From NCBI RefSeq assembly GCF_002923755.1, contig NZ_PGFZ01000013.1:1-64000 (forward strand): a DNA stretch of 64,000 nt, given 5' to 3'. This DNA is from Methylovulum psychrotolerans (GTDB lineage: Bacteria > Pseudomonadota > Gammaproteobacteria > Methylococcales > Methylomonadaceae). This document shows positions 1 to 22,879 of this stretch, piece by piece. The translations under genes were made by a program, and so were the position numbers. Position 1 is the stretch's first letter, and every line of letters starts with the position of its first letter. Below the pieces are notes generated by a model, which ran no database searches, had not been told where the DNA came from, and saw only the letters and a program-made list of their open reading frames with translations.

Positions 1-106
1 TCAGGCGGCTTCCCGTATCCGCCGCCAAGCCCGCATCCAAACCGGCGACAAAATCTTCTATGAAGGGGGCAAACTCGGTCAGTAGCATGGCGTTCAATCC
101 GGTCAT
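1..106 (-). CDS. Start of an unrecognised gene, cut by the left edge
   Basis: An open frame begins at an ATG at 106 and runs off the window (about 35 residues, start MTGLNAMLLTEFAPF). Its codon use (TTG, GCC, GCG) resembles the neighbours, and it has the same orientation as the exopolysaccharide operon upstream of it, after a 164-base gap. No clear Shine-Dalgarno sequence is seen. A short plus-strand frame ending at a TAG at 86-88 is an alternative reading. No function can be assigned. Confidence 0.3.
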   Translation of the reverse strand, partial: MTGLNAMLLTEFAPFIEDFVAGLDAGLAADTGSRL

Positions 107-270
107 TTTTTAACGCGGATTAGCTTACCTGCTTTACCACCCATTTTCAGCCATAAATTTGGCGGCTTTATGAAAAACTTGATGATCGAGTGTAAGCACT
201 GCCTTTCTATTGTATAGTAGTCGCCAGTATATTGCGTGACCCCGATGATTATTTTTGTGCACTTAAGGAC

Positions 271-13031: not shown

Positions 13032-13763
13032 TTAACCGACTGCCGACTGCTCTGCTGCTGCATCATGGCTGAAACGGACGCTGTCTTCGGCAGACCGTCC
13101 CAGGGCTTTGGCAAACCAAGGTGGCGGAGCGGCAAAAACGGCTTGGAATTCCTGCAATTGCGCCACCGCTTCGGTGACATCCGGCACTTTAATCGGATAA
13201 ATATCGGCGCGGATTACTTTTGCCGCCGCTGGCCCACCGATAGACTGCACGAATAAGACATGGCAATCTTTAATCAATTGGGCGCGGAACAAGTTACGGT
13301 CTTCGGCACTGTCGGCTTCGATGGTCGAGCGGATGTCCACTAAACGGTAATCGGTGGCCGATAATTGGTAGACCAGGAAACGGATGCACGAGCCAAAATG
13401 GCCGTTAATTAACGCACCGCTGTTCGAGCCGATGGCGACCCGGATCGATTCGGGCAGGTCGCCGTCTTGGTAGGGCATAATTTCCGGCAAATCTTCGTCT
13501 TGGTCTTCATCACCCCACAAATAGCGTACCGCCAATTTGATATTGGCCAGACCGATGCCGATGTCTTCGCCGTCTTCTTCGCCATCTAAACTGCCCAAGC
13601 CTGTTTTTAGGTTAGTGACGGTGATGGATTTGAGCTTTTCGTCAGTTAACGGCGAACCGACCCGTTCATGCAGTATGCCCAGTAATTTAGGTATATCGAT
13701 GCCGGGTAAGATGCGTGATGCCAAAGCGATGCGTAAAGCCAGTTCACGGGGTAATGCGTCCAT
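13032..13763 (-). CDS. NafY-like nitrogenase cofactor carrier protein
   Basis: A 243-residue two-domain protein. Residues 105-225 are a dinitrogenase iron-molybdenum cofactor-binding domain of the NifX/NifB C-terminal/NafY family (IRVAIGSNSGALINGHFGSC, with the conserved HFG near-motif, and VLFVQSIGGPAAAKVIRADIYPIKV). The N-terminal 95 residues are helical, like the apo-dinitrogenase-binding domain of NafY. Known relatives carry FeMo-co or its precursors and stabilise apo-nitrogenase. The start at 13763 is preceded by AGGAGCTTGAA; a longer frame begins at 13784. It lies immediately after the ankyrin gene and ends the nif-type run of genes. Confidence 0.82.
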   Translation of the reverse strand: MDALPRELALRIALASRILPGIDIPKLLGILHERVGSPLTDEKLKSITVTNLKTGLGSLDGEEDGEDIGIGLANIKLAVRYLWGDEDQDEDLPEIMPYQDGDLPESIRVAIGSNSGALINGHFGSCIRFLVYQLSATDYRLVDIRSTIEADSAEDRNLFRAQLIKDCHVLFVQSIGGPAAAKVIRADIYPIKVPDVTEAVAQLQEFQAVFAAPPPWFAKALGRSAEDSVRFSHDAAAEQSAVG

Positions 13764-13764
13764 T

Positions 13765-14217
13765 TCAAGCTCCTGGTTTAACAAGCGGGGATAAGAATTT
13801 GAGGATTTTTCGGGTTGACGCTAAGTCCACCGCAGTAAAATCATCATGGTTTTTCAGGGTCGGATCAGCCCCGCCCTGAATAAGCTGTTCGACCACCGCT
13901 TCCCGGCCACTGGAGGCGGCAAACATCAGGGCAGTCGCACCTGAGGCCGGGCTTTGGTAATCCGGGTCAATACCTGCCTGTAGCAAAGCTGCGATACACT
14001 CACCGTTTTTGGCATAACAGGCCGCCCATAAGGCGTTATTGCCATAATCATCGACGACACTCAGGTCGGCCTGTTCGGCCAGTAAAAACCTGACAACATC
14101 ACTACGGCCTTGCTGGCAGGCCAAGATTAGCGGATACAGGCCTGCACTGTTTTGTGCCGTAGGTTGGGCGATTGAAAAATAATTGTCTTGCAGCCAAGCC
14201 CATACTTCCGTTTTCAT
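13765..14217 (-). CDS. Ankyrin-repeat protein of the nif cluster
   Basis: A 150-residue protein built of about four ankyrin repeats: GLYPLILACQQGRSDVVRFLLAE, GNNALWAACYAKNGECIAAL, GATALMFAASSGREAVVEQL and FTAVDLASTRKILKFL. Such repeats bind proteins. The start at 14217 (MKTEVWAWLQDNYFSI) overlaps the rhodanese stop as TGATG, so the two are translationally coupled. The position between a rhodanese and a NafY-like gene suggests a role in nitrogenase maturation or protection, but no partner is evident from sequence. Confidence 0.85.
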   Translation of the reverse strand: MKTEVWAWLQDNYFSIAQPTAQNSAGLYPLILACQQGRSDVVRFLLAEQADLSVVDDYGNNALWAACYAKNGECIAALLQAGIDPDYQSPASGATALMFAASSGREAVVEQLIQGGADPTLKNHDDFTAVDLASTRKILKFLSPLVKPGA

Positions 14218-14531
14218 CAGGCCGCCTGAAGGGCTTCCCGCCAACTGGCATAGCCACCATCCAGGCTATAGACGGCCTTGAAACCGAAATCGCTAAAGAA
14301 TTCGGCAAGATGCTCACTGGCATGGCCGTAATAGCAATAAATCAATAGGTCACGTTGTTTATCGCCGCGTTTGATTAAGGACTCTTTCAGGCCCTCATGG
14401 ACATGCAGCGCGTCATCAATATGTCCGGCCTTATAGTCCTTGGTGTCCCGGCAGTCCAGAATCATCGGGGCGGCAGCTTGGATCAACGTTTTTGCTTCGG
14501 CAACAGAAATTTTTTTATACTTAATAGCCAT
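14217..14531 (-). CDS. Rhodanese-like sulfurtransferase of the nif cluster
   Basis: A 104-residue single-domain rhodanese. It contains ILDCRDTKDYKAGHIDDALHV, the active-site loop IYCYYGHAS with the persulfide-forming cysteine, and the closing VYSLDGGYASWREAL. It should carry sulfane sulfur in the cytoplasm. Azotobacter-type nif regions contain a similar rhodanese gene (rhdN), so a sulfur-supply role for cluster assembly is plausible. It lies 20 bases after the AAA+ gene and overlaps the ankyrin start. Confidence 0.9.
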   Translation of the reverse strand: MAIKYKKISVAEAKTLIQAAAPMILDCRDTKDYKAGHIDDALHVHEGLKESLIKRGDKQRDLLIYCYYGHASEHLAEFFSDFGFKAVYSLDGGYASWREALQAA

Positions 14532-14551: not shown

Positions 14552-16285
14552 TTACGGCAGGGCGGCTGGAGACAGTCCCCCATTAGCGGGCTGATCTAAA
14601 TCCATACCCCGAAATATGGAGCAACGGGTAAAGACATCCAACGTCGGCGGGACGTTTTTATGTTGGCAAAACTTCGCCACTAATTTGGCAAGACCTTTGA
14701 TGTCGCGGCCTGTCGCCTGCGGGAAGTTATCGGCAAGTTGGCCGATCAGGGCGGCATCGATATTCAGCTCAAACTGGGCAGCCATCACTTGCCAAATTTT
14801 CCGCCGGGCTTCAGTATCCGGCGGGTAATACTTAATCAGGGCGATACAGCGCGAGACGATAGCCTCGTCAATATCATCGACGCGGTTGGTGGTCAAAAAC
14901 AGCAGGCCATTGAAATATTCCAACACCCGCAAGAACACCCCAACCACAGCATTCATGGCGATATTGTTGTCACGGCGTTTGATATAAACATCGGCTTCAT
15001 CAATCAGCATCACCGCACCCCAACGTTGCGCACGGGTCAGCACCTCTTTCAGGGCTTTTTCCATTTCCGCGACGCTTAACCCCAATTGCCCGGAATGCAC
15101 CCGGTATAAAGGCCGTTTGATAATTTCGGAATAGACTTCAGCAGTCAGGGTTTTACCGACTCCAGCGGGGCCTGCGCATAACACGGTCGTGCCACCGGAT
15201 TTACCCGCGACAATATCATCCATTAACACATCCATTTCAGCGGTCAAAATATCAATCAGATCAATTTGTTCTTCACGCAAAATCAGCTTTTGCTTAAGTT
15301 CCGGCTGATAGCGGTAAGGCTCTATATCGTTGACATGCACCCATAAATGATGATGCAGTTCCAGATGGAACATCAATAAATAGCCGTGTACGGGCAAATC
15401 GGTGAACAGGCCTTTGGGGATTTCCGCTTGGGTGGCTTCCACGGCATTTTCGACCTTGCCGTTATAGCGGGTGCTTTTGGCGGCTTTGCGCAAATATTTC
15501 GCCAAAATATCGCCTTTAGCATCGGTGGTTAACGCCCGTTCGCTCAGGATGCTTTCATCGCAGACCAGCCGGGCATTACCGCCTTCGGTGGACAGCACCA
15601 CCACATCCTTACGCGCCCAATCGGTGTTACGGTGCGTGGCGGTAGGGTCTTCGGCGTAAAAGCCCGTGCCTTTACCGAGAAATTGGTCGCCGGATTGGCC
15701 GCACCAAGTAAAATAACGTTCGGCGGCTTCATCATAGCTGCTGATCAATTCCGGCGTTTCCTTGATATAGCCCTTGGCCAAGAAAATTTCCGTAATGGTT
15801 TTATTGGCAATATCACGGGCGCGAATGGTGACGGTGGAAATGGCCACCTTGCCTTTGGCATTGGCCTTTAATTCCAGTGTCACACGTCCGGTCTCTTCCT
15901 CGCCGGACGGCGTGTAATCCAAGCGGGTGACCAGATAAGCCATCGGCTTGCCCGCGACATTGGCTTGAAACAACCAGCCGCGCAGGGCATTATGGATAAG
16001 ATAATGGGCAATGGCGGGCAGCAACATTTCCAGATCATCTTCGGTAAACGTCACAATATCGTCGTTCATCGCTTTTTGTAGCGTCGACAATTGCGCGACA
16101 TGGCCTTGCATCGCCACACCCTCTTGCTGGTACAACACTTGCAAATAATTCAGCTCATTGTCGGAAAGTTGCTTGAAGGGAATTTCGGCCTTATTGCCAA
16201 ACCGCAATTGCTCTTTTAACGCCGCCAAGCCCGGAAACTCATCCACCATCGCTTCTACATATTTGCGTTCTATTTGCAGTTTCAT
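14552..16285 (-). CDS. AAA+ ATPase embedded in the nif cluster
   Basis: A 577-residue protein. The C-terminal 230 residues are an AAA+ module: Walker A GPAGVGKT at 372-379, Walker B VMLIDEAD at 425-432, sensor-1 TTNR near 465, an arginine-finger-like SRC soon after, and a sensor-2 region (QATGRDIKGLAKL). The N-terminal 350 residues are unfamiliar and mixed alpha/beta; they presumably bind the substrate. Single-ring AAA+ proteins of this layout usually remodel or unfold protein complexes. It precedes the rhodanese, ankyrin and NafY-like genes by 20 bases and so probably acts with them. It is not one of the classical nif genes. Confidence 0.85.
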   Translation of the reverse strand: MKLQIERKYVEAMVDEFPGLAALKEQLRFGNKAEIPFKQLSDNELNYLQVLYQQEGVAMQGHVAQLSTLQKAMNDDIVTFTEDDLEMLLPAIAHYLIHNALRGWLFQANVAGKPMAYLVTRLDYTPSGEEETGRVTLELKANAKGKVAISTVTIRARDIANKTITEIFLAKGYIKETPELISSYDEAAERYFTWCGQSGDQFLGKGTGFYAEDPTATHRNTDWARKDVVVLSTEGGNARLVCDESILSERALTTDAKGDILAKYLRKAAKSTRYNGKVENAVEATQAEIPKGLFTDLPVHGYLLMFHLELHHHLWVHVNDIEPYRYQPELKQKLILREEQIDLIDILTAEMDVLMDDIVAGKSGGTTVLCAGPAGVGKTLTAEVYSEIIKRPLYRVHSGQLGLSVAEMEKALKEVLTRAQRWGAVMLIDEADVYIKRRDNNIAMNAVVGVFLRVLEYFNGLLFLTTNRVDDIDEAIVSRCIALIKYYPPDTEARRKIWQVMAAQFELNIDAALIGQLADNFPQATGRDIKGLAKLVAKFCQHKNVPPTLDVFTRCSIFRGMDLDQPANGGLSPAALP

Positions 16286-16467
16286 GGCTACTCCATAAAG
16301 GGGGGCGTAGTGTAGACGGGTAGCCGCCGACGGATTGGCTGGCTTGCTTAAAGTTATGGTGTAGACAAATCGCTAAAGACAGCCGACGCTTGGCTTGGCC
16401 GCTATGTCCGGCAAGCCAAGCGGCACTAAAGCTTATCCTTTGATAATGCCTTAGGCTAAAGGCTAGC

Positions 16468-17037
16468 TTAAATCGCCCCTACTGACGCATCTTTGACCAC
16501 GACAAAGGTATTCGCTTGCGCTTCTTCATACGTCACCAGCGGTGCTTTGGTTTTATAGGTTTTGGCGGCGGCATAAGCGATGGCCACTTTATCTTCGGCG
16601 GATTGGTTTTTCAGCTCGCTTTTTTCGATATACAGCTCTTCTAAAATCTCGTTCCAAACCAAGCCTTCTTTGTAAGGCAACAAGATATAAGTGACCCCGG
16701 CCAATTCAACTTGCAGGCTTTTGGCGATATTTTCGACATAGACGATGGCAACACAATCGCTGGCAATGTCGGCCTGATATTTTTCTACAAAAACAGGCAA
16801 TAAATCGAGCTTAGGCAATAGGCCGTTGATAAATTTGATTTTGTCATTTTCGATAATTAACGCCGAATGGATGAACAGTGCTTCGGGCGGCTTGCGGTCG
16901 TGCGTGGTGCCTTCGCGCAACGCGCCTTCTTTCAGCACCAAATCGCCGCGATACGCATAAACGCCCGCCGTGCTGGTTTGGCCGTTGACTAAAGTGACGG
17001 TTAATAAGCCTTGGGCCTGATAAGTTTCTAATAACAT
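16468..17037 (-). CDS. Uncharacterised protein between the nif genes and the AAA+ gene
   Basis: A 189-residue protein of mixed alpha/beta character with no signal peptide or membrane helix and no recognised motif. The N-terminus reads MLLETYQAQGLLTVTL. The start at 17037 has GGAG at 8 bases; the frame extends four codons further to a TTG, but that TTG overlaps the ribosome site. It lies 182 bases upstream of the AAA+ gene, and a hairpin at 16389-16420 (12 pairs with one bulge) lies between them. Co-orientation suggests, but does not prove, a shared job with the AAA+ ATPase. Confidence 0.7.
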   Translation of the reverse strand: MLLETYQAQGLLTVTLVNGQTSTAGVYAYRGDLVLKEGALREGTTHDRKPPEALFIHSALIIENDKIKFINGLLPKLDLLPVFVEKYQADIASDCVAIVYVENIAKSLQVELAGVTYILLPYKEGLVWNEILEELYIEKSELKNQSAEDKVAIAYAAAKTYKTKAPLVTYEEAQANTFVVVKDASVGAI

Positions 17038-17069
17038 GGTTTTCTCCAATATTCAGTAAAAATAATGTG

Positions 17070-17174
17070 TTAGGAATGGGTATGAAATAAACTCATCAAT
17101 TAAGGCCTTGCAGGTTTTGGCAACCTACAAGGTCTGCCGGATTAATGCCGAAATTATTTCATGCCCGTTCCTTA
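17070..17174. repeat. Palindromic intergenic repeat, copy 2 of 4
   Basis: The arms TTAGGAATGGGTATGAAAT (from 17070) and ATTTCATGCCCGTTCCTTA (to 17174) are inverted repeats with few differences. An inner hairpin, CCTTGCAGGTT/AACCTACAAGG, lies around 17106-17132. The last three bases of the right arm (TTA at 17172-17174) are the stop codon of the adjacent minus-strand gene, so the element abuts the coding region exactly. Confidence 0.75.
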
Positions 17175-17549
17175 GGGAGTTAAGGGCAGTAATTTGGCTT
17201 CCGCTTTGATATTGTCCGCTTGTCCCCAGGCTGTGACCCCTTCAACAAACCATTGGCTTTTACGCGGATGGGGTTTGACGACATCAAATTCAGCATAAAA
17301 ACTGCCGTCGCTGTTAAATTGCAGCTTACCCAAACGTTGCTTATTGGCATGGTTAAACCAATGGCAGGCCAGATTATGCCCCCCCGTATACGGGTCTTTG
17401 ACCAGCTCGAAACGGGCTTCGTCATACTGCGGGTAAGGCAGGGCTTCGCTGGCGGCAAAACCCAGTTTGTCGATTTCCGCGCTTAGGCGCTGGCATACGG
17501 CTTCGCCTAAGGGGCGGTTGGCCGTAATCTGTGCTGTCAAATCGCTCAT
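17172..17549 (-). CDS. Conserved-type small hypothetical protein of the nif cluster
   Basis: A 125-residue soluble protein, start MSDLTAQITANRPLGEAV. It has no known catalytic motif. A tryptophan- and histidine-containing central stretch (GGHNLACHWFNHANKQRLGKL) and a C-terminal half (GSFYAEFDVVKPHPRKSQWF) suggest a beta-rich domain. It overlaps the upstream TPR-like gene by 4 bases and so is co-translated with it. Similar small open frames of unknown function accompany nif ferredoxins in other diazotrophs. The stop codon coincides with the end of a palindromic repeat. Confidence 0.75.
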   Translation of the reverse strand: MSDLTAQITANRPLGEAVCQRLSAEIDKLGFAASEALPYPQYDEARFELVKDPYTGGHNLACHWFNHANKQRLGKLQFNSDGSFYAEFDVVKPHPRKSQWFVEGVTAWGQADNIKAEAKLLPLTP

Positions 17550-18043
17550 GCCGCCATCCCCGCCGCCAAATCCATAATCACCGAAGCCCCCGAAAGGTCT
17601 TTCGGATCCAGTTGCCGTAAGTACGCCAGTACCTGTTGCGCCTCGCCGTCATAGCCTTGCCGTAATTTGATGAAGGCCAACGCTTTCAGTGTGTACAAAT
17701 AAAATAGGGCGGTATCATTGGCATACAGATCCCATTGCTTGGGCTGTTGCGCCAGTTGGCTATAATCTACCGGAAACTGGCCTTGTCTTGCCGCTTCCGC
17801 CAAACCCGCCCTGACGATGCGTTCGGCATCGGCTAGGCGTTTTTGGAAAAAATAAAACTTATACAGGGCGAAATAGGTTTGCAGGCAAGCGTTATCCAAG
17901 CTTTGCGCCTGTAAAAATAGCCTTTCCGCCCTGCTTTGGTCTACCGAACTGGCGGCGACCGCCGCTTGTAAAAGCTGGTTGACCGCTTCCGGTATATCCG
18001 GGCTAAACAGCACCCGTTCTTCAATCAGCGTAACAGCGGCCAT
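17546..18043 (-). CDS. TPR-like protein of the nif cluster
   Basis: A 165-residue all-helical protein with tetratricopeptide-like spacing: ERLFLQAQSLDNACLQTYFALYKFYF, RLADAERIVRAGLAEAARQG and TLKALAFIKLRQGYDGEAQQVL. It probably mediates protein-protein contacts. The start at 18043 overlaps the upstream ferredoxin stop as TGATG; an ATG two codons earlier is less likely. It is coupled on its downstream side to the small hypothetical gene by a 4-base overlap. Confidence 0.78.
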   Translation of the reverse strand: MAAVTLIEERVLFSPDIPEAVNQLLQAAVAASSVDQSRAERLFLQAQSLDNACLQTYFALYKFYFFQKRLADAERIVRAGLAEAARQGQFPVDYSQLAQQPKQWDLYANDTALFYLYTLKALAFIKLRQGYDGEAQQVLAYLRQLDPKDLSGASVIMDLAAGMAA

Positions 18044-18366
18044 CACCAAATCTCGGCGGGCATCAACAAATCGGCGACCGGTTCGCCGCCGAGCAAGTGT
18101 TGTTCAATGATGGTTTTGACATCGTCTTTTTGCACTTTGCCGTACATCACACCTTCAGGGTAGACCAGTACACTAGACCCCATCATGCACGGCCCCATGC
18201 AGCCGGTATTGGTCAGGCCGATTTTTTCAAATAAGTTACGCGCTTGGATTTCGTTCATGAACTCATTCATGACTTCGGCGCAACCCGACTGGGCACAAGA
18301 GCCGCGCGGATGACCCTGCGGACGGTTTTGGGTGCAAACAAACACATGTTTTTCGGGTCTGGGCAT
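18043..18366 (-). CDS. Thioredoxin-like [2Fe-2S] ferredoxin, Shethna protein I type
   Basis: A 107-residue thioredoxin-fold [2Fe-2S] ferredoxin. Cysteines C11 (HVFVCTQNR), C24 (RGSCAQSGC), C56 and C60 (TGCMGPC) are in the family positions; C29 is extra. The C-terminus VLVYPEGVMYGKVQKDDV is characteristic. Proteins of this family are encoded in nif regions of Azotobacter-like bacteria and act as small electron carriers in the cytoplasm. It lies 37 bases after fdxB and overlaps the next gene as TGATG. Confidence 0.9.
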   Translation of the reverse strand: MPRPEKHVFVCTQNRPQGHPRGSCAQSGCAEVMNEFMNEIQARNLFEKIGLTNTGCMGPCMMGSSVLVYPEGVMYGKVQKDDVKTIIEQHLLGGEPVADLLMPAEIW

Positions 18367-18403: not shown

Positions 18404-18721
18404 CTAGGCAGCAATTTTATGGGTATGGGTAAAGCAAGCTTTAGGGCAAACCTTTGAGCAAGCCTCGCAACCGATACAATCAAGAGAATTTTTAATGCTC
18501 ATAACCATGCTGTTATCATCATCGTCTTCAAAATCACCGTAATCGTCGTCAAAATCCTCGGCATCCAAGGCTTCTGCCTTATCCACCAAATCAAACACAT
18601 CGCGGGGGCAGACTTTAAAGCAGCGGCCACAACCGATGCAGGTCTTTTGGTTAATGTCGGTAACGTATGCGGGAGTCCACTCCGATCCGCCAAAGGTAAC
18701 GCCGGTGACAAATTCAGCCAT
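18404..18721 (-). CDS. fdxB: nif-specific ferredoxin III (2[4Fe-4S])
   Basis: A 105-residue ferredoxin with two cluster motifs: [12 protein letters not shown] near the start and [12 protein letters not shown] near the end. The two are separated by an acidic insertion ([14 protein letters not shown]) typical of the nif-specific ferredoxin III family. It probably donates electrons to cofactor assembly or nitrogenase. The start at 18721 ([12 protein letters not shown]) matches the family N-terminus and follows a purine-rich GGAGATACATC stretch; the longer frame to 18802 is not supported. It sits 13 bases after the DUF683 gene. Confidence 0.92.
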
Positions 18722-18734
18722 GATGTATCTCCGC

Positions 18735-18947
18735 TTAGGCCGCCGCCGCTTGGGCGGCCAGCAGTTTTTGGTTAGCTTCATCCCAAGCCTTGCAGGCGGC
18801 ATAAACTTCTTCGGCTATGCCCATCAATTCACCGTAACCATCCGGTAAACGGTCTTCGATCAAGTCATGCAAGACCATCGCCTGTTCACTCGCCAAGCGT
18901 TTGGTTTTTTTGACTTCTTTTTCCAGGGTTTTTAAATCGTCAGACAT
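18735..18947 (-). CDS. DUF683/CCE_0567-family small protein of the nif cluster
   Basis: A 70-residue helical-hairpin protein ([20 protein letters not shown], then [20 protein letters not shown]). This family occurs almost only in nif operons next to the NifX-associated DUF269 protein, and a cyanobacterial relative binds metal. The order nifX - DUF269 - DUF683 - fdxB here is the common one in Proteobacteria. A second helix ends in an alanine-rich tail. The exact biochemical role is not known. Confidence 0.9.
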
Positions 18948-18958
18948 GGCAAGCCCTC

Positions 18959-19432
18959 TTAATCCGTTGCGGCAGCGTTATATTTTTCGATTAAGCCCAA
19001 CGCTTTTTCGATGACTTTGTCGGTTTTCTCACACAAGTCTTCCAAGCTGGCGAAGCCGAAACGGTGGGTGTCGCGTAAAATTTTATCGACCACAATCAGC
19101 TTACCGACCATGATTAACGCGCGGCCAAAGCCTTCGTGGCTAAGATGCACGATAGGGGCGGCCATCAATCCGGTCTTTTTTTCGATCAGGGTCGCCAACG
19201 AGTTGTAATAGGCTTTTAAACGGGCGATGGTGATTTCATCAGGGTCGCCAATAACCGGAATGCCTTGTTTGCGTTCTTTGGTCAACACAACCGGGTCGAT
19301 GATTTTAGCTTCCGACCAACCTGCATAAGTATCGTAAGTGTCAATCGCGCGTAATTGTTTAATGTAGTCTTTGACAATATCAGAACTTAAATGGACATCG
19401 TCTTCGGCTACGACTAATGCGGCAGTACTCAT
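18959..19432 (-). CDS. NifX-associated nitrogen fixation protein (DUF269)
   Basis: A 157-residue soluble protein of the NifX-associated DUF269 family. Marks include ALVVAEDDVHLSSDIVKDYIKQLRAIDTYDTY, GIPVIGDPDEITIARLKAYYN, and PIVHLSHEGFGRALIMVGKLIVVDK with DTHRFGF. The length is normal. The gene lies between nifX and the DUF683 gene, as in many diazotrophs. The role is believed to be in FeMo-cofactor assembly or insertion, but it is not defined. Confidence 0.93.
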   Translation of the reverse strand: MSTAALVVAEDDVHLSSDIVKDYIKQLRAIDTYDTYAGWSEAKIIDPVVLTKERKQGIPVIGDPDEITIARLKAYYNSLATLIEKKTGLMAAPIVHLSHEGFGRALIMVGKLIVVDKILRDTHRFGFASLEDLCEKTDKVIEKALGLIEKYNAAATD

Positions 19433-19499: not shown

Positions 19500-19985
19500 C
19501 TATTCATCCCAGCCCTCATCAAGCATTTTATTGAAGCGCTCGGGATCCGGGCCTTTGTGTTGGTTAATCGCCTTCGCCAACCAGCTTGACGGGCCGGCTT
19601 TGATTTCGTTTTGCAAATCGGCAATCAGGTCTTTAATCTTGCTGCCTTCATGCACCTTGACGGGCTGGATATTTCTGGCGATCAGTTGGTTAATCGCCGA
19701 CCCGCCGACCGCTTGGCAATACACCGCCGCACAACCATCGAGCAGGTCAAGCTTGACCGACAGCTTATCTTCGTTACCGTCTTGGTTAAGTTCGCCAAAC
19801 TGCGCGGCTTCCAATAACTGCGAATTTTCCATATCCACGGCATAAATGGCGAAGGATTTCGCCGAGCCGAAATGCTGATTAACCGTGTCCATATCGGTAG
19901 TGGCGAACGCGATTTTTAAGGCGGTTTCCATAAATTTTTCCTCTTCTGTGTCAGGCACAATGTGCATTCGTCTGGTTAATGACAT
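19500..19985 (-). CDS. nifX: FeMo-cofactor biosynthesis carrier NifX
   Basis: A 161-residue NifX: LKIAFATTDMDTVNQHFGSAKSFAIYAV, YCQAVGGSAINQLIARNIQPVKV, and the C-terminal QHKGPDPERFNKMLDEGWDE. NifX binds NifB-co and the VK cluster on their way to NifEN. The start at 19985 is chosen because the extra N-terminus (RRMHIVPDTEEEKF) resembles the acidic leader of known NifX proteins. It overlaps nifN by 10 bases; an internal ATG at 19931 with AGAGGA is the alternative. It follows nifN directly in the nifE-nifN-nifX operon. Confidence 0.93.
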   Translation of the reverse strand: MSLTRRMHIVPDTEEEKFMETALKIAFATTDMDTVNQHFGSAKSFAIYAVDMENSQLLEAAQFGELNQDGNEDKLSVKLDLLDGCAAVYCQAVGGSAINQLIARNIQPVKVHEGSKIKDLIADLQNEIKAGPSSWLAKAINQHKGPDPERFNKMLDEGWDE

Positions 19986-21373
19986 GGCTGTGGCCGGTCG
20001 GTAAGTTCACTGGCGGGTTTTTGCGCGTACACGGAGTGGTACACAGGAATTTCTTCATGCGAATAATTGATGACCAAGTTAGCCAAATCAAACAAGGTTT
20101 GCCGTGTGCCCCGATAACCGACCCAGGTTTTCTGGTAGCCGCCGATAATGTCGTACAAGGGGAAACCCGCGCGTAAAATTGGCGTACCCAGCCGTTCGGC
20201 GGTATCTACCGCATGGGAGTTACCAATGACCAATTGCACTTTGTTTGCCCGGCCCATCAGTTCCATGTCTTCCAGATCGCCAATTTTGATACTGGCGACC
20301 GGAATTTTCGCCAACAGCGGCGTATTGCAGGAAGTCACTGCCGCCACCACATCCGCACCCATTTCCTGTACCAAATCAATAAACGCCGCCAACAAATCGG
20401 CATCGGCGGCAATGGCGACCCGCAATTGCCCAAGCATAAAATGGGTGTCGAGCATGGCATCCTGCAACTGGGCGCGTTGCCGTTCGATGCGTTCCGGCAC
20501 GGCGTTGCCACTGATCTTTGCCAAGGCGCACATCAGCGCGTCATTGGCTTTTAAGCCATAGAGGTGGGGTAGGGGATAGGTAGGCACACCCGTTTTGGCC
20601 TCCAACAGTTCGGCGGCCTTGCTTAAGGAGTCGCCAATCACGATGGTTGCCAACGCATCACCTAAGGTCGCCATTTCCGAGATAAGTGTGCCGCCGATTG
20701 TCACGGGGCTAAAATCATCATCGGTCAAACAACCGTCTAAGGAATCCGATAAATCAGGGACAAATACAGGCCGCAGCTGGAATTGCTCAAAAATATCGCG
20801 TAACGCCTCCAAATCACCCGGAGTCAGCATATAACTCGCCAAGACATTGACCTGACGCTTCCGTTTGCCCGGATAGGTGCCGGCGGTTTGGGCATCCGGC
20901 ACCAAAGCGCGGATAATCTCCACCAATGTCGCTGCATAACCCGTCTCGACACTGCCGGTAAAATCAGGGGTATTGACCGCGACCACGGCGACATCGGCAA
21001 ATTCTGGATTGGCCTCGCGGAACTCGCGGACATTACGGTGGACATCCGCCCCTTGCGTTTCGGCCAAGCCTGTCGTCAAAATCGTAATCAGCGCGGGATT
21101 GGATTTTTCGGCAATATTACGGATACCTTCGCGGACATTCTCATCCGCCCCCAGCACCGAACTGGCCTGATCCATAGCCGTGCTTTGCAACGGAATAGGC
21201 TCGCGGAAATGCCGGACAAAAAACACCTTGGCAAATGCGGTGCAACCTTGCGAGCCGTGTAGCATCGGCATAGCGCGATTAAAGCCTAAGGTTGCCAAAG
21301 AGCCGCCTATCGGTTGACTGGCTTTTAGCGGGTTAACCGAGAGCGCCTTATTGCGCTTTAAAATATCAGCCAT
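19976..21373 (-). CDS. nifN: Nitrogenase FeMo-cofactor scaffold subunit NifN
   Basis: A 465-residue NifN, the beta-type subunit of the NifEN scaffold on which the FeMo-cofactor precursor matures. The N-terminus [20 protein letters not shown] and MPMLHGSQGCTAFAKVFFVR are diagnostic; C44 is the P-cluster-site cysteine. VVAVNTPDFTGSVETGY and SYMLTPGDLEALRDIFEQF follow. The start at 21373 overlaps the nifE stop as TAATG. The length is normal and no frameshift is seen. It should assemble with NifE in the cytoplasm. Confidence 0.97.
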   Translation of the reverse strand: MADILKRNKALSVNPLKASQPIGGSLATLGFNRAMPMLHGSQGCTAFAKVFFVRHFREPIPLQSTAMDQASSVLGADENVREGIRNIAEKSNPALITILTTGLAETQGADVHRNVREFREANPEFADVAVVAVNTPDFTGSVETGYAATLVEIIRALVPDAQTAGTYPGKRKRQVNVLASYMLTPGDLEALRDIFEQFQLRPVFVPDLSDSLDGCLTDDDFSPVTIGGTLISEMATLGDALATIVIGDSLSKAAELLEAKTGVPTYPLPHLYGLKANDALMCALAKISGNAVPERIERQRAQLQDAMLDTHFMLGQLRVAIAADADLLAAFIDLVQEMGADVVAAVTSCNTPLLAKIPVASIKIGDLEDMELMGRANKVQLVIGNSHAVDTAERLGTPILRAGFPLYDIIGGYQKTWVGYRGTRQTLFDLANLVINYSHEEIPVYHSVYAQKPASELTDRPQPCH

Positions 21374-22767
21374 TACGCCGCCTCCGGAAAAGCCGCCAAC
21401 GTTTTCCACGGTGCGGGAGCCCTAACGGCCTGCCAGACGGGGCTTTCAATGGTCAAAGCCAATTGCCGCACCAATTCCAACATGCCTTGATAGCCTTCAT
21501 AACCAAATTCGCGCTCTTGGTTAATGTCCAAGAAAGGGATTTTCGCTTTTAAAGCCGTGTACATATTCCGGCCTCCGGCAATCAGAATATCGGCCTTATA
21601 ATCATGGACGACTTTTAACAAGGCTTTCGGACTACCGTCATTGATCATCAGGGTATCCTCACCCATCAGTTCCCGAATCCGCGCCTTATCCTCTTCAGTG
21701 GATTTGTTCGTACCTGTCGCCACCACCACCATGCCTAAATCTTGCAGCGCCGAAATCACCGACCAACTTTTTACCCCACCCGTAAACAACAGCACCCGCT
21801 TGCCTTTCAGCCGCGCCTTCCACGGCTCCAATTCGGCACGGATGCGGCTTTCTTCGCGGGCAATCACTTGCTCGGTGCGGGCGGTCAAATCGTCATCACC
21901 CAAAGCTTTGGCAAAATCCCGCAAGGCTTGGCTAGTGTCGGTAATACCGTAAAAACTGCCTTCAAACCACGGTGTCCGGTAGCTTTGCTGCAACTTCCGC
22001 GCGACATTAACCATCGCCTTGGAGCAAACCATCATATTGACTTCCGCTTTGTGCATCGTTTGCACTTCCCGGAACCGGGCATCGCCGGACAAAGTACACA
22101 GCACCCGCAAGCCTAATTCGTCTAACAGCGGCAACACATGCCAAAACTCGCCCGCGATGTTGTATTCGCCAATCAGATTCACGTCATGGATGGTGATAGG
22201 GCTGTTGATGGGTAAGGGGTCAGGGTCGCGTGTGCCGATAACATATTTAACCATCGCATCGCCAGCAATCCGGTTGCCCAGGTTTTTTGTGCCATAAAAG
22301 CCCGCGCTGTCTATCGGCACCACAGGTACACCCCACAGTTCTTGGGCAGATTTACAGACAGCGTTGATATCGTCGCCGATTAAGGCGGGCACACAAGTGT
22401 TATAAACAAACACGGCAGGCGGCGAGTAAGTGTCTATCGCCTGTTTAATGGCATGGAACAAGCGTTTTTCCGCCCGACCCATGACAATATCCTGCTCGGT
22501 CAGGTCGGTGGTCATGCCGATACGGTATAAGTCCGCGCCGGAAGAACGTGTCCCGCGGTTATCCCACGAACTGCCCGCGCAAGCGATAGGCCCGTGGACA
22601 ATATGGGCGACATCGGCAATGGGCAACAGGGCAATCTGCGCCCCGTCAAAAGCACAGCCACCCGCCGCCGACCCCGGCTTAGGCTTGGCACAACCGGATT
22701 TTTCCTTTTTGTTATGCTCGCAAGCAGGTTCGTCCAGCAACGCTGCAATGTCTTTTGTCGATTTCAT
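21373..22767 (-). CDS. nifE: Nitrogenase FeMo-cofactor scaffold subunit NifE
   Basis: A 464-residue NifE, partner of NifN. Cluster-binding cysteines are in family positions: C38 ([11 protein letters not shown]), C63 ([15 protein letters not shown]) and C125 ([14 protein letters not shown]). Further marks are [36 protein letters not shown] and [20 protein letters not shown]. It is the first gene of the operon. A sigma-54 promoter lies about 40-55 bases before the start and a NifA activator site further up, so expression is expected only under nitrogen-fixing conditions. Confidence 0.98.
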
Positions 22768-22804
22768 GGCTTTTGACCTGATAGCTTTGTTTGTTAAGCT
22801 AAAA

Positions 22805-22819
22805 GCAAACAGTGTGCCA
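22805..22819 (-). promoter_or_regulatory. Sigma-54 promoter of nifE
   Basis: Read on the minus strand, TGGCACACTGTTTGC has the -24 GG and -12 GC at exact spacing (consensus TGGCAC-N5-TTGC). It lies 37-52 bases upstream of the nifE ATG, which puts transcription start near 22793. Confidence 0.92.
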
Positions 22820-22863
22820 TTTATTATCCCATTGAATTATAATATATTTTAATGGATTTATTT

Positions 22864-22879
22864 TGTAGGGAACCTGACA
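22864..22879 (-). promoter_or_regulatory. NifA upstream activator sequence for nifE
   Basis: TGTAGGGAACCTGACA is a perfect TGT-N10-ACA site. Its centre is about 60 bases upstream of the sigma-54 promoter, a little closer than the usual 80-150 bases. Confidence 0.8.

Follow-up and report, generated by a model that had tools for sequence, protein, structure and literature searches.

An AAA+ ATPase almost confined to diazotrophs, and its candidate partner, in the nifENX block of Methylovulum psychrotolerans

The nifENX block of the methane-oxidising bacterium Methylovulum psychrotolerans includes genes for an AAA+ ATPase and for a protein of 189 residues, hereafter u189, and the orthologue families of both occur almost exclusively in diazotrophs, including where they are unlinked from nifENX. 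These proteins look like unrecognised helpers of nitrogenase. On balance, we favour the view that the ATPase is a NifA-controlled remodeller dedicated to nitrogen fixation, which would act without threading its clients on a complex involved in nitrogenase assembly or protection, with u189 as its likely partner. Diazotroph-restricted genes of this kind, which are not classical nif genes, may explain how aerobic cells sustain a fragile, oxygen-sensitive nitrogenase, and may be missing parts when nitrogen fixation is transferred to other hosts.

Gene order, distribution and putative regulation

In the window, i.e., the whole stretch of 64,000 nucleotides that was analysed, all genes of the nif block are on the minus strand and run from nifE (22767) to the gene of a NafY-like protein (13032) in the order nifE, nifN, nifX, DUF269, DUF683, ferredoxin III, [2Fe-2S] ferredoxin, TPR-like, u125, u189, AAA, rhodanese, ankyrin and NafY (Table 1); nifHDK is located on a separate contig (C18). 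The first-pass annotation had placed an ATPase of 577 residues and a protein of 189 residues between the nifENX-ferredoxin and the rhodanese-ankyrin-NafY genes; both open reading frames were found at these positions, and its opinion that neither is a classical nif gene is supported. The 20-base gap between the AAA and rhodanese genes and the overlap of the rhodanese and ankyrin genes that it described were likewise confirmed on the sequence; the overlap is of 1 base (TGATG) with the ATG start of the ankyrin gene and of 28 bases with the TTG start, and the ATG of NafY is found 1 base past the ankyrin stop. Because of these short gaps and overlaps, AAA, rhodanese, ankyrin and NafY look like one tightly packed unit. 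For u189 an alternative TTG start at 17049 would yield 193 residues. The genes of the TPR-like protein and of u125 (17172-18049) recur beside the [2Fe-2S] ferredoxin and AAA genes in distant gammaproteobacteria. About 4 kb past the NafY end of the block there is a transposase-like ORF, named by its look.

Table 1. Features of the nif block, its surroundings and the AAA+ ATPase (nucleotide positions in the window; residues where indicated)
Feature	Position	Strand	Basis or remark
Transposase-like ORF, 402 aa	7663-8871	-	named by look
NafY-like protein (DIMCO_N + Nitro_FeMo-Co)	13032-13763	-	
Ankyrin-repeat protein	13765-14217	-	ATG start; TTG start at 14244 possible
Single-domain rhodanese, GlpE-like	14217-14531	-	active-site loop CYYGHA
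AAA+ ATPase, 577 aa	14552-16285	-	ORF + Pfam
u189, 189 aa, family unassigned	16468-17037	-	ORF, ATG at 17037
u125, 125 aa, without assigned family	17172-17549	-	nifENX block
TPR-like protein, 167 aa, without assigned function	17546-18049	-	
[2Fe-2S] thioredoxin-like ferredoxin	18043-18366	-	
nif-specific ferredoxin III	18404-18802	-	
DUF683-type small protein	18735-18947	-	position and resemblance, no family search
NifX-associated protein (DUF269)	18959-19432	-	
nifX	19500-19985	-	
nifN	19976-21409	-	
nifE	21373-22767	-	
Sigma-54-like site ATGGCACACTGTTTGCT, upstream of nifE	22804-22820	-	sequence scoring
NifA-type site TGT-N10-ACA, upstream of nifE	22864-22879	-	
AAA+ ATPase, N-domain	residues ~1-200		
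AAA+ ATPase, linker region			invariant histidines
AAA+ ATPase, AAA module			C-terminal
Walker A	residues 372-379		AAA module
Walker B	residues 425-430		AAA module
Sensor 1	N467		AAA module
Arg finger	R479		AAA module
GRD	residues 526-528		AAA module

The distribution of the ATPase was determined in a sample of the class (369 genomes, 32 of them with nitrogenase genes, scored as nifD). A full-length orthologue (65-100% identity) was found in eight genomes that belong to eight different families, and all eight have nifD (hypergeometric p about 1e-9); below the orthologues, the next matches in the class fall to 47% identity or less. The other 24 of the 32 diazotroph genomes do not have the orthologue. 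In a scan of 84,980 species, the best 80 loci are 67-93% identical to the ATPase; among 49 genomes examined that hold copies of 67-88% identity, 48 have nifD/nifE matches, 43 of these over the nifD cut-off, and matches to the nifD profile at about 310-320 bits are NifE-like and come from incomplete assemblies. The sole genome without a nitrogenase match is a MAG (L103). In a separate sample of the phylum (299 genomes), the four new genomes with an orthologue all have nifD or nifE, and in one genome the AAA gene is 180 kb away from nifD. By these three counts, the orthologues form a diazotroph-specific gene family.

Conservation of the gene order in other diazotrophs, proposed as a check in the first-pass annotation, was only partial: synteny with nifENX and NafY is kept in the Methylobacter/Methylovulum group, whereas elsewhere the AAA gene often lies away from nifENX. 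For most of the loci L081-L129, nifENX was not seen in the flanking DNA retrieved around the AAA gene. In Gallionellaceae, Xanthobacteraceae and Tepidiphilus the AAA gene adjoins a rhodanese-ankyrin pair, in different orientations. Outside nif blocks, the recurrent neighbours in L081-L129 encode GST-like proteins (10 loci), FAD amine oxidases (10), SelO-like proteins (9) and fumarylacetoacetate hydrolase-like proteins (6), and these are possibly more unrecognised genes of the nif regulon. One orthologue on a MAG contig (L076:10001-11686) has its frame broken after about 126 codons, either by a frameshift or by an assembly error. The 89.6-kb plasmid of Methylococcus sp. EFPC2 (NZ_CP070492.1; L152/L156) carries an AAA gene with 71% identity and a relative of u189, together with nifHDKEN, nifL, isc, nifV, nifW, rnf and ferredoxins, and represents a natural portable, self-contained nitrogen-fixation module. 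In this plasmid the AAA gene is downstream of nifV-nifW-ferredoxin-TPR-2Fe2S-grxD-bolA, and the TPR-like protein of the window is 44% identical to a protein encoded upstream of the AAA gene.

Regarding the expression of these genes, the sigma-54-like site upstream of nifE, a textbook example, is likely the head promoter of the block. No sigma-54 site was detected directly in front of the AAA gene of the window, and its expression presumably relies on read-through from the nifE promoter. In 48 AAA loci, mostly unlinked, a sigma-54-like site (threshold of 9.5 or more in a home-made scoring) is present within 200 bases upstream in 19, versus 0.6 in dinucleotide shuffles (maximum 3 in 200), and the motif TGT-N10-ACA is present within 500 bases upstream in 17, versus 2.7 in shuffles. 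A cruder control based on the remaining gene starts in these loci gave 26% for AAA versus 13% over 500 bases. The direction of the enrichment is clear, and its magnitude is uncertain, because the cruder control is less favourable and the loci are related and not fully independent. In two close relatives (L062 and L066) the AAA-rhodanese pair has moved out of the nifENX block, no nifENX is found within 10 kb, and a sigma-54 site and two NifA sites lie just upstream. As a group, the unlinked AAA copies have the putative upstream sites of a NifA/sigma-54 regulon.

Co-occurring proteins and a possible role in protection

With genomes treated as independent of phylogeny, and with p values uncorrected for the several partners tested, u189 is present in 7/8 of the AAA-bearing diazotrophs of the class versus 4/24 of those without AAA (Fisher p=0.0007); the two genes co-occur mostly unlinked, often on different contigs. 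In the same 32 genomes no association was detected between AAA and NafY (3/8 vs 6/24, p=0.65), which the first-pass annotation had suggested as a partner, and no significant association with the [2Fe-2S] ferredoxin. A nif-bearing relative of the same family (G249), which offers a natural example of this operon without AAA, has u189, rhodanese and NafY in tight linkage and lacks an AAA orthologue; at this locus (L137:9684-11292), which shows a TAATATG junction, neither an AAA nor an ankyrin gene is found between them. Since G249 keeps u189, rhodanese and NafY without AAA, the latter can be considered a removable cassette, hence accessory. An obligate partnership with NafY is ruled out by the co-occurrence data as well as by G249, and u189 is the better candidate.

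No match for u189 was found in Pfam, NCBIfam, PADLOC or the PDB sequences, and its identity with PnfA was ruled out, given that PnfA is a UspA-like protein of 31.7 kDa (PMC2820453). The structural model of u189 is confident (pLDDT 92), and its fold had no match in the PDB among the matches listed (best E 0.011, TM 0.19-0.30). Homologues are present in 11/369 genomes of the class, all 11 with nifD, and, where checked, all relatives come from diazotrophs or nif plasmids; there are 10 plasmid records with u189, at least 7 of them also among the nifE matches listed, a tally that also counts exactly two Cupriavidus records. The alignment contains no invariant Cys or His, therefore a metal site is unlikely and a role as adaptor or client would be more plausible.

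The genomic context of the u189 relatives bears on the main alternative, i.e., that the ATPase and u189 serve to inactivate nitrogenase reversibly, to shield it or to repair it during oxygen, nitrosative or energy stress, instead of participating in its maturation. These relatives are often divergent from nifH, beside genes for a truncated globin, a Rieske protein and a nitrogenase-associated ArsC-like protein, and in one genome the operon includes a DraT-like protein followed by an ADP-ribosylglycohydrolase-like (DraG-like) ORF. Such operons, the co-occurrence of AAA with u189, and the aerobic or microaerobic lifestyle of many AAA-bearing genera are consistent with protection; nevertheless, the names DraT and DraG reflect a resemblance judged by reading, with no match in NCBIfam, the aa3 oxidase, taken as a proxy of aerobic lifestyle, is not associated with AAA among the 32 diazotrophs of the class (5/8 vs 9/24, p=0.25), and in the window both genes sit within a cofactor-assembly block. 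We regard a role restricted to protection or switch-off as possible, though doubtful.

Architecture of the ATPase and its wider family

Residues 1-320 of the ATPase gave no convincing Pfam or NCBIfam family. The AlphaFold model has fair confidence over residues 1-200 (block pLDDT 72-93), and no fold match was found for the N-domain among the matches listed. The first-pass annotation considered the N-terminal half as novel; this holds in the sense that it matches no family, but it is common to a wider unnamed family that occurs in non-diazotrophs. Proteins of the same architecture with 33-41% identity were found in genomes without nitrogenase (G160, G648 and G654) as well as on plasmids of enterobacteria, Paraburkholderia, Variovorax and others; the architecture is thus general and not nif-specific, and the orthologue clade is nif-restricted. 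A predominance of homologues in non-diazotrophs, which that annotation had set as a refutation of its proposal, is true of this wider family and not of the orthologue clade. Members such as Variovorax QRF61265.1 ('ATP-binding protein', about 540-560 residues) align with this identity along some 80% of the sequence, and the Variovorax protein has the same LG-x pore-loop region and the conserved cysteines that precede Walker A and follow the Arg finger; in contrast to the orthologues, members of the wider family are encoded in genomes or plasmids without nitrogenase, beside unrelated genes. In the tree, a long branch sets the nif clade (56 rows, support 100/98) apart from the wider family; the position of the outgroup (L017), which itself sits on a very long branch, is unsure.

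The existence of this family, with members on enterobacterial and Paraburkholderia plasmids, and the dispensability of the AAA gene in G249 could be accounted for if an AAA+ protein with a general stress or housekeeping function had been moved along with nif islands by shared mobility. We consider this very unlikely, in view of the long, supported branch of the orthologue clade, of the permanence of AAA in nitrogenase-bearing genomes even at 180 kb or on other contigs, and of the putative NifA/sigma-54 sites that the unlinked copies have of their own.

The C-terminal region matches the Pfam AAA family (PF00004) at residues 368-480 (62.3 bits vs a cut-off of 21.2, E 8e-17), and the motifs GPxGVGKT, MLIDEAD, TTNR and SRC are fully or almost fully conserved in 47 aligned orthologues. 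Given that Walker A, Walker B, the sensor-1 Asn and the Arg finger are kept, the protein should hydrolyse ATP. Two cysteines, C370 just ahead of Walker A and C480 directly behind the Arg finger, are invariant among the 47 orthologues and recur in the Variovorax relative, and it is conceivable that they make the ATPase redox-sensitive. The AlphaFold model of the AAA module is poor (pLDDT about 30) because the alignment is shallow and highly conserved; a fold search with this low-confidence model yielded generic AAA matches or bad superpositions (rmsd above 20), and a PDB profile search with our alignment (A1) at E 1e-20 gave no match. Pore loop 1 reads L-N/S-V-A, with L-S-V-A aligned to KWVG of a VCP-like ATPase; its aromatic residue is absent in 47/47 orthologues, where this column contains N (42) or S (5). 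The aromatic-hydrophobic-Gly pore loop 1 of threading unfoldases of the CDC48, FtsH or PAN type is therefore missing, and this argues against classical threading. A classical unfoldase that threads its clients, or a defence ATPase that acts like the anti-phage IetA, is hardly credible, even though IetA/IteA and TRIP13 are the best named profiles outside Pfam AAA, with CDC48 and PAN also matched (NCBIfam/PADLOC), and CDC48-like ATPases are the best PDB matches, since all these named profiles cover only the AAA module and are far under their cut-offs, where cut-offs exist (37.8 bits vs 510 for the full-length IetA/IteA equivalog), and no protease partner was seen among the neighbouring genes in the window.

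According to the reading that we favour, a dedicated non-threading remodeller, the ATPase would be produced under NifA/sigma-54 control, as the putative sites suggest, and would probably form a ring that hydrolyses ATP, like other AAA proteins. The unmatched N-domain would dock a client, and the conformation or the partners of this client would be altered without conventional threading, a mode proposed in view of the absent pore-loop-1 aromatic. Its client would likely be a complex for nitrogenase assembly, Fe-S delivery or protection, and the most likely functional partner or adaptor would be u189. The function would be accessory and conditional, outside the minimal nitrogenase pathway. This proposal is directly testable, given that the AAA carriers include growable Methylobacter, Methylovulum, Sulfuriferula and Azomonas, and one small nif plasmid.

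Comparison with known systems

A literature search for AAA ATPases in nif clusters, in which subscription journals were mostly not covered, found no paper describing one, and the Tn-seq and methanotroph nif papers retrieved do not mention this protein. A likeness is found, by description only, with azo3791 of Azoarcus sp. BH72, a 'conserved hypothetical ATPase' located outside the nif cluster that belongs to a set of only 8 genes in which RpoN and NifA sites occur together (PMC3916325). Accessory, non-essential proteins of the nif regulon are an established kind, which includes PnfA, NafU, NifW and NafY; the pnfA mutant, for example, has a partial phenotype, with 23% activity (PMC2820453). Judged from their descriptions, PnfA (UspA-like) and NafU (a membrane protein) are unrelated to the ATPase and u189.

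The likeness to IetA and TRIP13/Pch2 is limited to the AAA module; the N-terminus is different and the AAA gene does not show a defence context. On the other hand, CbbX, CbbQ, NorQ, MoxR and Rubisco activase are AAA+ remodellers dedicated to metalloenzymes, and by analogy the arrangement described here may follow the same principle, i.e., one operon-linked AAA+ ATPase for each difficult enzyme. The ATPase differs from all of these in that there is no family-level sequence match, and its N-domain is unlike any of theirs. To our knowledge, no AAA+ remodeller devoted to the maturation or repair of nitrogenase has been described, and the papers covered by the search name none. In a bolder version of the proposal, which we think improbable, the ATPase and u189 would constitute an unrecognised nitrogenase 'activase' or repair machine, ATP-driven and non-threading, by which nitrogenase, its assembly scaffold or its reductase would be freed or re-activated after damage or inhibition, a role that would be comparable to that of Rubisco activase.
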